From positions 62,001 to 126,000 of the forward strand of contig JAGBEG010000010.1 of NCBI GenBank assembly GCA_017937095.1: a DNA stretch of 64,000 nucleotides, read 5' to 3'. The translations under genes were made by a program, and so were the position numbers. The DNA is from Roseburia sp. (lineage in GTDB: Bacteria; Bacillota; Clostridia; Lachnospirales; Lachnospiraceae). This document shows positions 16,868 through 20,396 of the stretch, piece after piece. The number at the start of each line of letters is the position of its first letter. The stretch's first letter is position 1. Under the pieces are notes generated by a model. It had not been told where the DNA came from, ran no database searches, and was given only the letters and a program-made list of their open reading frames with translations.

Positions 16868-18064
16868 ATGGAACGATTATTGGGGAAAAAGAAAATAACG
16901 ACGTTGTTGTTTCTTGCATTTCTATTTGGATACGCGATTCTGAATGCCAGAAAGGAAATCCCGGTTTTAAAGGAAACGATAGCGGGCTGGTATGAGAGCG
17001 ACGGGACGCCGACCGAACTGGTGTCGCAGGTAAATGCTGCGATTGATGAAAACGTAGTGGAAAAATATGCGTTTATCGACGCCTACGGGTATATGCAGCT
17101 TCTTTTAGGCAAAGAGGAAGAGTCCAATTTCGAGGTGGTAAAGGATCACGCGGGAAAGCTCTACTACACTTATTTTACAACGGAAATCAACGACGTTTCT
17201 TCTGAGGCAGAGAAGACGAAAAAGCTGGCGGATGCAGTGTGCGACGAAGATACGAGACTTCTTTACGTGATGCCTCCGGCAAAATACATCCATGGGTTTA
17301 CCGAGTTCTCGACGGGAATCCCTTATAACATGGCGAACGAGACGGCGGATGATTTCTTAAGACGGCTGGACGAGTATGGCGTGGACTATATCGATCTGCG
17401 GGATTATCTCGATGAGAGCGGCATCCCGATGTCTGAGGTGTTTTATAATACGGATCACCACTGGAAGATTCAGACGGCGTTCTGGGCGGCTTCGCAGTTC
17501 TGCGACGTCTTGGAGGAGCGCTACGGGGAGACGCTGGACCCGGACGATTACTACAAGGATAAGGACAATTATAACTTTATCACCTATGACGACATTTTCC
17601 TCGGATCGATGGGGAGAAAGACCGGGCGTTTCTATACGGAGGTGGATGATTTTACACTGATCTATCCGAAGTTTGCGACCGATTATACCTATGAGAACAG
17701 CATTTCCGGCGATCTGCAGTTTACGGGCAGATTCGAGGAGGCGCTGCTTGCGACCCCGGTCATCCGGCAGAGTAATCAGCCGTTCGATACGGATATGTAT
17801 GGAATCTATCTGTATGGAAATCCGGCGTTTACGCATATCGAAAATATGGATCATCCGGACGGGCTGCGCATCTGTGTCATTAAGGATTCCTTTGCCGTGC
17901 CGTTCTCGGCGTTTACGTCCTTAAGATGCAATACGGTGGATCTGATCGATCCGCGATTTTATGAGGAGGATTATTACGAGACGATCAAAGCGGGAGATTA
18001 TGATTATGTCATACTGATGTTTTCCCCGGAAAATATCGTGGAGGAGTTCTTCCCGTGGGAATAG
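16868..18064 (+). CDS. DHHW (AlgJ/AlgX-like) SGNH-type acetylation protein
   Basis: A 398-aa membrane-anchored extracytoplasmic protein that probably completes acetyl transfer to the polysaccharide. A single N-terminal helix (TTLLFLAFLFGYAIL) anchors it. The family motif NTDHHWK is at about residues 195-201 and the serine motif KDSFAVPFSAF near residue 340 is the likely nucleophile segment of the SGNH-like fold. The ATG at 16868 follows AAAGGGTGAG. It lies 32 bp after the MBOAT gene and completes a set like AlgI-AlgJ or WssH-WssI. No cleavable signal is obvious, so it probably stays membrane-tethered. Confidence 0.85.
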   Translation: MERLLGKKKITTLLFLAFLFGYAILNARKEIPVLKETIAGWYESDGTPTELVSQVNAAIDENVVEKYAFIDAYGYMQLLLGKEEESNFEVVKDHAGKLYYTYFTTEINDVSSEAEKTKKLADAVCDEDTRLLYVMPPAKYIHGFTEFSTGIPYNMANETADDFLRRLDEYGVDYIDLRDYLDESGIPMSEVFYNTDHHWKIQTAFWAASQFCDVLEERYGETLDPDDYYKDKDNYNFITYDDIFLGSMGRKTGRFYTEVDDFTLIYPKFATDYTYENSISGDLQFTGRFEEALLATPVIRQSNQPFDTDMYGIYLYGNPAFTHIENMDHPDGLRICVIKDSFAVPFSAFTSLRCNTVDLIDPRFYEEDYYETIKAGDYDYVILMFSPENIVEEFFPWE

Positions 18065-18114
18065 GAAGCAGCGTTCTTCCCGGGAAATGTGGCGGCTTCG
18101 GAAGGGAGCGTATC

Positions 18115-19335
18115 ATGTATAAAATTAAAGAGACAGAAGATCGCGAAAAATATATTCTCTTACTTCCGGCAATGTTAGACGCACATTTTCCGCTTCTTAA
18201 GTACGCCTTTTATTCCCGCAATTATCATCCGGTCATTCTGGAAAATGAGGAGGGCATCACCGATACGGGGCTTCGCTATGTGAATCACGATATGTGCTAT
18301 CCTGCAATCTTAAATGTCGGTCAGATGGTGGCGGCGTTAAAGAGCGGTGCGTTTGATACAGAACGCACCGTTCTCTTGATGCCGCAGGCGGGGGATGCGT
18401 GCCGCGGCTCTAATTATATCAGTGTCTTAAGAAGGGCGGTCGCTGCGGCAGGATTTCCGGAGGTAAGGGCGCTCTCTTTGAATGCGAAGGGCTTGGAGAA
18501 GGAGAATCGGGTAAAGCTTGACGCCGGGATGGTCTGGCGGGCGTTTTTTGGTCTGTTCTACAGCGATATCCTGATGCTCTTAAAGAATCAGGTAGAACCC
18601 TATGAAAAGGAATCCGGCGCGGCAGCGGAATGTCACAGAAGATGGCAGAATTTACTCGCAGAGGATTTAAAGAGGGGAAGACATCTGACCTGCGGCGCGA
18701 TGCGCAGGAATTTCCTTCGGATGGCGGAGGAGTTCTCGGCGATTCCAAGAACACATGCGGTGAAACAGAAGATCGGAATCGTCGGCGAGCTGTATGTGAA
18801 ATACTGTCATCTGGGGAATTGGAATCTCGAGAAGTTCCTGCGGGAAGAGGATTGTGAATATTATATCAATGGTCTGTCGTGGTATGTGCTCTACTATATC
18901 GACACGCATCTTGCGGCGGAGGGCGGTGCGGCGCGGCTGCTCTATGGGATCGGGCAGCGCTTTTTAGAGCACTATCAGAAGAAAATGATTAAAGCGCTGC
19001 GAGATCACGGCTTCTACAGTGCGGATGCGTTCACGGAGTTCAAGAGAGCGGCGGAGGGCTATGTCAGTTTTCACTGCACGACCGGAGACGGATGGCTGAT
19101 CGGGGCGGAGGCTGTGGCGCATATCCGCGGAGGCTACCGCAAGGTCATTGCGGCGCAGCCCTTTGACTGTATGCCGAATCATGTCTGCGGAAGAGGACTT
19201 TATCCTTCGCTGCAAAGAAAGCTGCCCGAGGGGCAGCTTGTGAGCGTCAATGTGGATGCGAGCGGGTCAAAGCTCAACTACTATAACCGGATCAAGATGT
19301 TGATTGATGCGCCGGAGCATGTAAAGAGGGGCTGA
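18115..19335 (+). CDS. 2-hydroxyacyl-CoA dehydratase-like protein, stand-alone
   Basis: The 406-aa sequence resembles the iron-sulfur part of the 2-hydroxyacyl-CoA dehydratase/activase superfamily, including the long CoA-activase proteins common in Clostridia. Supporting segments are NHDMCYPAILNVGQMV, MPQAGDACRGSNYI and the late CMPNHVCGRGLYPSL, which hold the conserved cysteines that would bind a 4Fe-4S cluster. No activase (ASKHA ATPase) domain or partner subunit is nearby. The ATG at 18115 has GAAGGGAG 7-14 bases upstream. It starts 50 bp after the DHHW gene and may share its transcript, but a role in the polysaccharide pathway is not evident; it may be an unrelated passenger. Confidence 0.72.
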   Translation: MYKIKETEDREKYILLLPAMLDAHFPLLKYAFYSRNYHPVILENEEGITDTGLRYVNHDMCYPAILNVGQMVAALKSGAFDTERTVLLMPQAGDACRGSNYISVLRRAVAAAGFPEVRALSLNAKGLEKENRVKLDAGMVWRAFFGLFYSDILMLLKNQVEPYEKESGAAAECHRRWQNLLAEDLKRGRHLTCGAMRRNFLRMAEEFSAIPRTHAVKQKIGIVGELYVKYCHLGNWNLEKFLREEDCEYYINGLSWYVLYYIDTHLAAEGGAARLLYGIGQRFLEHYQKKMIKALRDHGFYSADAFTEFKRAAEGYVSFHCTTGDGWLIGAEAVAHIRGGYRKVIAAQPFDCMPNHVCGRGLYPSLQRKLPEGQLVSVNVDASGSKLNYYNRIKMLIDAPEHVKRG

Positions 19336-19360
19336 CGCATGAATGGTTGCTTTTGATAGG

Positions 19361-19890
19361 CATAATTCTCATTATGAGGGCATAAATACGCAGTGTTCCA
19401 AAACGAGAACGGCGGCCGTAACTTTCGTTGGAACAAAATCCCCGAATTTCTTCGCGTCCGATTCGAGCATCTAATTCCGTGTCTCTTGCACTGCTTCGAC
19501 AAGCCGCCGGATGTGTTTCGACAAGCGAAAGACAATTAGGGCGAACTTCCTGCCAGCACTAGGCAGGTTTCTTCACAAAATCACGATAAAACCGCGCAGC
19601 TCGAAACTCGACGCCGTCTGCTATTAAGACCCGTGGCAGAAGGCGTCTCAAACATCTTGCTGCGCGGTTACGCTTTGTTCAGAAGCCTGCCAAGTGCTGC
19701 ACGAAAGTTCTTAATATTGTCTTTCTGCTTGCGAACACATTCAGGCGGATTGCTCGAACATTGGAAAGACACGGATTATCACAGATGCGAGAACGGACGC
19801 GTTAGAAATTGTGGATTTTGCGACCGAAATTGCGGCAGCCGTTCTCATTTGGAATACCAGCATTTTTCACGACTCATAATGAGAATTATA
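19361..19890. repeat. Giant imperfect palindrome (about 530 bp) with conserved ends
   Basis: The 18-base left end CATAATTCTCATTATGAG (19361-19378) reappears as its reverse complement at 19873-19890 with one mismatch. The two arms keep pairing all the way inward, with roughly two thirds to three quarters of positions identical by eye. Shared blocks include GAGAACGGC, CGCGTCCG, CCGTGTCT, GAAAGACAAT and CCGCGCAG. The centre is itself a hairpin: GACGCC/GGCGTC and CTGC/GCAG around the loop at 19622-19635. It fills the gap between two convergent genes. No convincing protein is encoded; it could be a fold-back mobile element, a structured RNA, or two inverted copies of a dispersed repeat. Confidence 0.85.
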
Positions 19891-19925
19891 CGTAAACAAT
19901 CATGGGCGTTAGTGCGTCATCCTGC

Positions 19926-20396
19926 TTAACGCCCGTTCTGCGCATAAGCAGCTTTCTCCCGCTGCATTTCAAGCATCAGGCGGGGAAGCGTCCATCCTGC
20001 ATTGGTCGGCGTGAGAACTGCCTTATAGGAAAGCGCTACGTCTGCCCTGCGCAGTTCAAAGAGCAGCTTGTCCATGCGCTTGTCGGAAAGGTGGCACATC
20101 ACAAGAAGGCTCTCGGAGAGCACGGGGGAGGAGGCAGCCTGTCCGTGGCTTCCGGAAGAGGCGGGCGCGCCGGAGGATGGGCGACCGGAAACTGCGGGTG
20201 CGCCGCAGGATGGGCTTCCGGAAGCGGCGGGCGCGCCGGAGGCACTGGAATTATGGCTTCCGGAAGCGATTTCCCCGAGCGTCAGGTGGTAACAGGCGGG
20301 ATCGACCCGCTCTAAGCGCAGCTTTAAGCGGGATGCAATCTGATTTACCTTTTGAAATTCGGCGTCGTCTGCGCCGAAGAGTAATAGTTTTTCCAT
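19926..20396 (-). CDS. DUF3783 family protein with an inserted 11-residue repeat
   Basis: A 156-aa cytoplasmic protein. The start KLLLFGADDAEFQKVNQIAS and the end MDKLLFELRRADVALSYK followed by AVLTPTNAGWTLPRLML match the DUF3783 pattern, whose function is unknown. Between them, residues about 50-90 are a Gly/Ala/Ser/Pro linker made of three 11-residue units of the form SxGAPAxSGxP. The ATG at 20396 follows ATAAGGAGAT. The stop lies in a GGGCGTTA/TAACGCCC hairpin (19904-19935), just outside the giant palindrome. It is transcribed toward the polysaccharide locus and is not part of it. Confidence 0.75.
   Translation of the reverse strand: MEKLLLFGADDAEFQKVNQIASRLKLRLERVDPACYHLTLGEIASGSHNSSASGAPAASGSPSCGAPAVSGRPSSGAPASSGSHGQAASSPVLSESLLVMCHLSDKRMDKLLFELRRADVALSYKAVLTPTNAGWTLPRLMLEMQREKAAYAQNGR
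20147..20245 (-). repeat. Three 33-bp tandem repeats inside the DUF3783 gene
   Basis: Units start at 20147, 20180 and 20213 (on the + strand GGCTTCCGGAAG for the first and third, GGCGACCGGAAA for the second). A partial fourth GGCTTCCGGAAGCG begins at 20255. The 33-bp length keeps the frame and gives the 11-residue protein repeat. Confidence 0.88.

Follow-up and report, generated by a model that had tools for sequence, protein, structure and literature searches.

A dispersed family of imperfect palindromes of about 530 bp at gene ends in Roseburia and other Clostridia

The palindrome and its neighbouring genes

The analysed window is a stretch of 64,000 nt from a Roseburia genome, referred to as G000. 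Two convergent genes end at 19335 (+ strand) and 19926 (- strand), and between them lies an imperfect palindrome of 530 bp at 19361-19890. A first-pass annotation had described the palindrome, its location between convergent genes and a further hairpin at the apex (19610-19647), and our analysis agrees with all of this: the inverted repeat is found at this place, with ungapped arms at 19357-19433 and 19818-19894 showing 70% complementarity, and the apex hairpin is present. The RNA folding proposed in the same annotation gave far better energies for 19361-19890 than for shuffled sequences on both strands, with -267.7 kcal/mol (z -19.8) on the + strand and -266.2 kcal/mol (z -18.2) on the - strand; in each case 0 of 100 dinucleotide shuffles folded as well. 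When a slightly longer fragment (19330-19925) was folded as DNA, z-values of -16.3 (+) and -14.1 (-) were obtained. Weaker inverted symmetry extends 60 nt beyond the core and was equalled by none of 2000 mononucleotide shuffles. The length of 530 bp represents a real element boundary, since the core measures 529-531 bp in five other copies of the same genome. In the orientation of the family the left arm of the window copy is the high-coordinate side. The features are as follows:

19361-19890, - strand: core element, 530-bp imperfect palindrome (arms, folds and copy lengths; orientation from the family alignment)
19530-19722, - strand: conserved inner hairpin, covariance model R1 (match G000:C7:81530-81722:-, E 3.3e-47)
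19610-19648, - strand: apex hairpin with the adjoining conserved GATGTTTGAG / CGAGTTTCG internal loop (fold, alignment)
19692-19706, - strand: conserved left-arm motif TTTCGTGNNGCNCTT (alignment of copies)
19544-19562, - strand: its right-arm partner CTAGTGCTGGCAGGAAGTT (alignment of copies)
19662-19670, - strand: conserved left-arm TAACCGCGC (alignment of copies)
19586-19597, - strand: conserved right-arm GCGCGGTTTTAT, with extra unpaired bases (alignment of copies)
19301-19360, + strand: left flank with weak pairing to the right flank (score 27 in a local alignment, reached by none of 2000 shuffles)
19891-19950, + strand: right flank, pairing partner of 19301-19360 (same local alignment)
18055-19335, + strand: upstream convergent gene, 426 aa, outside the element (no Pfam match in the 407 aa searched)
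19926-20396, - strand: downstream convergent gene, 156 aa, DUF3783 (Pfam), outside the element

Within TTTCGTGNNGCNCTT, CGTG lies opposite a CTAG-like sequence of the other arm and CTT is located at a fixed T.T mismatch. The left flank overlaps the end of the gene at 18055-19335 and is possibly one half of a target terminator. The DUF3783 gene contains a Gly/Ala/Pro/Ser-rich stretch (window 20100-20290) and encodes 156 aa, compared to 149 aa for its orthologue in the relative G020.

The arms had also been noted to give similar translations, as expected from related copies; this follows from the inverted repeat. No protein is conserved over the family of copies described below, and none of the window ORFs that overlap the element has a Pfam match. 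Over about 480 nt the 61 copies show a mean of 4.1-5.0 stops per frame and no frame is systematically open. ATG-initiated ORFs of 119-142 aa, above the maximum of 200 simple shuffles (118), were found in 14 of the 61 copies, on one strand in 4 and on the other in 10. These copies are L004, L005, L074, L079, L114 and nine others. Among six related copies the changes by codon position amounted to 35, 35 and 51, a mild excess at the third position, with 39 synonymous and 69 non-synonymous changes. In the other species examined (12 copies) the longest ATG ORF had 96 aa. A coding function was rejected because frames are not systematically open, ORFs occur on either strand and long ones are missing in other species; the element is probably not coding.

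Copies, insertion sites and unoccupied sites

The homology search suggested in the first-pass annotation, which would have been refuted by a complete lack of homologues, returned a family of copies. G000 contains 8 copies including that of the window; the others share 76-88% identity and one of them, L008, has lost the apex. A complete 3.59-Mb genome of the same genus, G035, gave 41 matches when queried with the window copy; a G035 copy as query gave 81, with both strands included in the count. At least 55 distinct places were mapped in G035, a lower bound counted among the candidates scored. The distribution is sporadic: of 60 relatives' genomes searched only G000 and G035 matched, and R1, a covariance model of the inner ~190 nt built from the copies of these two, had matches in 2 of the 392 genomes searched at order level and in 4 of the 397 at family level, where the window genome is included in each count, filters lose weak matches and G035 is seemingly outside both sets. 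R1 also matches G378, G478 and G568, each belonging to another genus, with 4-6 matches listed apiece. A pattern scan of the GTDB 220 genome collection yielded six loci, five of Acetivibrio ethanolgignens, which agree by eye with G378, and one of a Roseburia MAG; as this strict pattern missed G035, G478 and G568, absence from the scan means little. G378 is labelled as belonging to the family of the window genome, while NCBI places A. ethanolgignens, by name, in the Acetivibrionaceae and Roseburia in the Lachnospiraceae. Altogether the element family is present in six genomes from at least four genera of Clostridia.

We considered an origin from phages or plasmids and rejected it: blastn with the element against both plasmid and phage collections gave no match, and two strict pattern scans of viral contigs gave 0 matches. 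A replication-strand bias was likewise rejected, as 27 copies are located on the plus and 28 on the minus strand of the G035 chromosome with no trend visible along it. In one G035 copy, L118 (G035:C1:2223800), the right arm breaks off inside and continues as unrelated sequence; this copy looks truncated.

Using codon-scored gene calls, we surveyed the position of the copies relative to genes at all 8 sites of G000 and at 47 of the 55 in G035, 55 sites in total. Where both neighbours were called (34 sites), 23 copies are located between convergent and 11 between tandem genes, none between divergent genes. At the other 21 sites, with one side called or fewer, 14 copies adjoin a gene end, 5 a gene start and 2 neither. 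The median distance from the palindrome to the stop codon is 7 bp (71 gene ends).

Some copies are located inside or next to an intrinsic terminator. At L031, L033, L034, L037 and in the window the 60-nt flanks pair better than all 2000 shuffles, and at L035 5 of 2000 shuffles were as good. At two of the eight G000 sites flank pairing is not significant (L032, 690 of 2000 shuffles as good; L036, 100 of 2000), so insertion into a terminator loop is not general. The clearest target site is L033: G020 carries a bidirectional terminator there, and G000 has the halves of a similar stem around the element, which pair better than any of 2000 shuffles. G020 also has a terminator at the L035 and L036 sites, and at L032 the element lies directly 3' of one. 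At L037 the left flank, stop codon included, reappears in inverted form within the right flank, a feature that G020 and G035 lack; this is either a terminator of older date or the product of fold-back copying of the flank. From these sites we infer that terminators are targets of the element.

For the search of unoccupied sites the joined flanks of six G000 copies were compared to G020, G035 and G016. G020 is without the element at all six sites; at four of them both flanks fall in one match, at a fifth (L033) a match crosses the junction by 61 nt, and at the sixth (L031) the match consists of two pieces 89 bp apart. G035 also lacks the element at L035 and L037. The site in the window itself is not clean: the 426-aa gene is missing from G020 as well, and two convergent genes end 50 bp apart there. 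At the L034 site the left gene of G020 is followed by a terminator but by a different downstream gene. The neighbours of the 426-aa gene are adjacent in G020. Since all six further sites queried are empty in a relative, the element is or was mobile, and judged from these comparisons the family is a dispersed one, once or still mobile. Several dispersed copies with common ends and without a transposase gene of their own, and sites empty in a relative, are both marks of MITEs and fold-back elements.

At some of the G020 sites a copy may once have been present and then been lost, because G020 contains at least three stray element ends without core, and because the short interval at its L035 site holds CCGCATTCCGTT, an outer-arm motif of the element. 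The solo outer ends in G020 (L176, C66:52216; L177, C80:4283; L178, C20:12226) include the arm-internal hairpin motif GCATTCCG; they may have been left by deletions or belong to a smaller element that shares these ends. The L032 and L034 sites are occupied in both G000 and G035, with copies in opposite orientation, and the G035 copies there resemble the other copies of G035 more than those of G000. This suggests independent insertion in the two genomes; flipping by recombination between the arms plus homogenisation is the alternative. In one case (L100 in G035) a copy is nested in the apex region of a second one. Seven G000 copies, which are diverged, show no evident target-site duplication, and no arm pair enclosing a gene, as expected for an autonomous parent, was found among the scored matches of G000 and G035.

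Covariation, fixed mismatches and strand symmetry

Arm-to-arm covariation among homologues, another test proposed at the outset, turned out to be very strong. In an inner alignment of 37 copies 33 of 62 pairs show double changes, and with 41 sequences from five species, fitted to the R1 structure and uncorrected for relatedness, this number rises to 40 of 62 (L136, L142 and L143 fall below the cut for keeping one orientation in this alignment). Of the cells in the inner alignment 97.1% are paired compared to 79.2% in 500 column shuffles, none of which was as high, and sliding the 3' side by 1-3 columns reduces the paired cells to 37-44%. Variable spacer stretches co-vary as well. Between close copies the differences are mostly on one side of a pair and double changes rise with distance, a pattern that fits a structure kept in moving lineages with decay of the copies afterwards. 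Part of the excess of double changes may reflect rate differences between columns. The corresponding test on the outer 70 nt was weak, with an identity of 0.734 within and 0.634 between copies and no more than 10 of the 61 copies exceeding the 95th percentile.

Within the covarying stem several mismatches are nearly fixed. Counted in 61 of 63 copies (two truncated copies were dropped), these are T.T at columns 369/537 (61 of 61), A.G at 297/611 (58), G.A at 415/524 (53), A.G at 417/523 (58), T.T at 443/492 (60) and G.G at 444/490 (59). The inner part contains four loops with facing sequences CGTG/CTAG, CTTA/TTAG, GAACAAAAC/A/T-rich bulge and GTTTGAG/CGAGTT, and all four are recognisable by eye in A. 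ethanolgignens, G568 and the Roseburia MAG, more weakly in G478. Conserved unpaired bases in a covarying stem, as known from integron attC sites, are found here too.

In two copies, L098 (G035) and L133 (G378), the apex side of one arm has been rewritten as the complement of the other, which we take as a trace of correction by template switching. Hairpins are reported to be created, maintained and restored in this way (PMC8794818). Such correction would erase mismatches, yet they survive, which suggests that the fixed mismatches are under selection.

These data bear on the possibility that the family is a long-TIR MITE moved by an ordinary double-strand transposase, whose arms stay alike by template switching or gene conversion. 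The arm-specific bases would then be transposase sites in double-stranded DNA and the folding would be inert. Mobility, dispersed copies and pairing without G.U preference (see below) all suit this explanation, as do the rewritten arms of L098 and L133 and the finding that even close copies show more double changes than expected under independence. However, copying should have erased the fixed mismatches, whereas 58-61 of 61 copies retain T.T, G.G and A.G; by eye, the loops are seen again in other genera, the variable spacers co-vary too, and the lack of an evident target-site duplication also speaks against it. We regard a conventional MITE as possible but doubtful.

The first-pass annotation had left the choice between an old fold-back element and selection for one long RNA hairpin. 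The former is supported by the dispersed fold-back family with its unoccupied sites; the latter is not favoured by the covariation of the stem as a whole, which is unlike that of an RNA. A G.U pair becomes A.C on the other strand, so a stem selected as RNA should hold far more G.U than A.C. In an alignment blind to this difference 63 copies contained 419 G.U and 550 A.C, and in columns with at least 60% Watson-Crick pairs 61 copies contained 427 and 438. With private decay removed, four subfamily consensuses, covering 38 of the 61 copies and all from G035, gave 16 G.U and 21 A.C. The other species were similar, with G.U and A.C counts of 6 and 5 in G378, 4 and 4 in G568, 5 and 5 as well as 6 and 6 in two G478 copies, and 6 and 7 in Roseburia.

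The element consensus also folds about equally on its two strands (-152.2 vs -150.7 kcal/mol). As a control we used RNase P, represented by 13 of 17 full-length matches found in relatives, in place of tRNAs, only two of which had been found; its strands differ clearly (-110.3 vs -72.3 kcal/mol). Among the pairs chosen by RNAalifold, which themselves favour G.U, the G.U:A.C ratio was 2.5 and 2.7 for the element strands and 12.4 for RNase P. Since A.C equals G.U over the whole stem and the strands fold equally, unlike RNase P, the pairing looks DNA-level. The conclusion that there is no G.U excess, hence no RNA, has to be softened for the inner ~190 nt, where G.U exceeds A.C about 2:1 by hand count (134 vs 61) and 149 to 27 among RNAalifold pairs (ratios 5.5 and 4.1), and where the consensus folds better on the oriented strand (-91.4 vs -84.3 and -93.9 vs -79.5 kcal/mol). 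In folded single-stranded DNA, G.T would be tolerated a little better than A.C, and we therefore read this lean as a preferred strand, although the inner part could have an RNA role.

A functional structured RNA family, that is a hairpin RNA from one strand with protein-binding internal loops that has spread to many 3' untranslated regions, would likewise account for fixed-sequence loops in covarying helices, the usual look of structured RNAs, for the strand lean of the inner ~190 nt and for copies lying just downstream of genes. Against it stand the whole-stem symmetry in pair counts and folding and the unbiased orientation relative to neighbouring tandem genes (5 same, 6 opposite, with only 11 informative sites). 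There is moreover no promoter-like site within 19200-20050, and Rfam had no match in the element at gathering score (with E up to 10 two weak matches appeared, the best at E 0.18), on which ground a known RNA family was rejected. Taken together we consider an RNA family rather improbable.

Possible mode of movement

Our preferred reading, held with middling confidence on the basis of sequence comparison, is that the palindrome represents a non-autonomous, terminator-associated mobile element of about 530 bp that acts as a folded DNA hairpin. A housekeeping chromosomal site (bidirectional terminator, gyrase or nucleoid-protein site), immobile and with copies selected in place, would match the strong preference for convergent gene ends, which REP/BIME elements likewise show, but is very improbable, being already weakened by the sites unoccupied in a relative and further by the sporadic distribution and the one-sided decay of near-identical copies.

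If the element acts as a folded hairpin, the recognised unit would be DNA folded on itself, either as a single strand or as a cruciform. The fixed mismatched loops could be marks read by a putative enzyme acting in trans, by analogy to integron integrases, which read extrahelical attC bases, and to RAYTs, which are thought to read REPIN hairpins. Landing sites would be other hairpins, namely terminators and in one case the apex of another copy. After insertion copies would decay, pairing being kept in those lineages that still move, and template-switch correction during replication might restore whole stretches of the stem at once. In its most specific form the proposal would be that the transposition unit is a single giant folded DNA strand: one hairpin of ~530 nt whose fixed internal loops are read, which lands in the loops of hairpins (terminators or its own kin) and which is kept paired by selection acting on this strand plus template-switch repair. 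This would be a new class of mobile DNA, and we put it forward as a tentative suggestion only.

In bacteria, long palindromes in DNA generally count as unstable. Despite this expected instability one genome holds dozens of palindromes of ~500 nt, and compensatory changes have preserved the pairing of the family across genus-level divergence. If it is true that folded DNA is selected, the family would be a record of the mismatches that an enzyme reads in a giant DNA hairpin, and gene ends together with intrinsic terminators would be an unusual target preference. The family is also a natural example on which covariation at the RNA level and at the DNA level can be told apart; judged by a covariation test alone, it would have been taken for a structured RNA.

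No description of a giant-palindrome family was recognised in the open-access literature searched (subscription journals are mostly outside its coverage). The nearest known systems in working principle are REPINs and attC sites, the nearest in kind MITEs. With 57-141 bp attC sites are far shorter, and they end gene cassettes, whereas the element has several inner loops and occurs as single dispersed copies at gene ends. An attC site is recognised as a folded single DNA strand through extrahelical bases (PMC3053210). REPINs are non-autonomous extragenic inverted repeats in many copies; they are predicted to form a hairpin as ssDNA or mRNA, and a RAYT of the Y1 type is proposed to move them (PMC3116915). 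In these properties (extragenic inverted repeats, hairpin formation, many copies, lack of autonomy) they resemble the element, but a REPIN consists of two short REPs around a spacer, while the element is one continuous imperfect stem of ~530 nt, and the Y1 transposase expected of a REPIN/RAYT system was not found in the hosts G000 and G568. Bacterial MITEs such as MITEAba12 are described as non-autonomous, with inverted repeats and ~50 to 600 bp in length (PMC6382973). The element differs from them in that the whole of it forms one stem with compensatory evolution, and in that no parent transposon and no target-site duplication was found. Group IIC introns target intrinsic terminators. They are also reported to be linked with integrons, with attC hairpins as targets (PMC7923331). 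Group IIC introns are ribozymes with a reverse transcriptase, whereas PF00078 is absent from G000, G568 and G478, and no intron family in Rfam matched the element.

With respect to a mobilising enzyme, the Y1 transposase (PF01797) is absent from G000 (94.6% complete) and G568 (76% complete) and present in G035, G378 and G478 as well as in 4 of 5 comparison genomes without full copies. The three genomes lacking PF00078 are among the five element-bearing genomes tested. Neither an IS200/RAYT transposase nor a reverse transcriptase was accepted as the common mobiliser, enzyme presence being uncorrelated with element presence. When Y1 and reverse transcriptase loci were blasted against the extracted copies, three short matches were obtained, all to L088. 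Absence of an enzyme from G000 does not exclude one elsewhere, because the G000 copies are diverged and may be relics.

Two observations were made on the enzyme families themselves. G035 has seven Y1 transposase matches, four of which are 164-aa frames with nearly equal scores. In G016, a member of the genus without the palindrome, eleven matches to reverse transcriptase were obtained (L229, L232-L234 and others), which have a 466-aa frame and score almost alike; this set looks like a recently expanded element.
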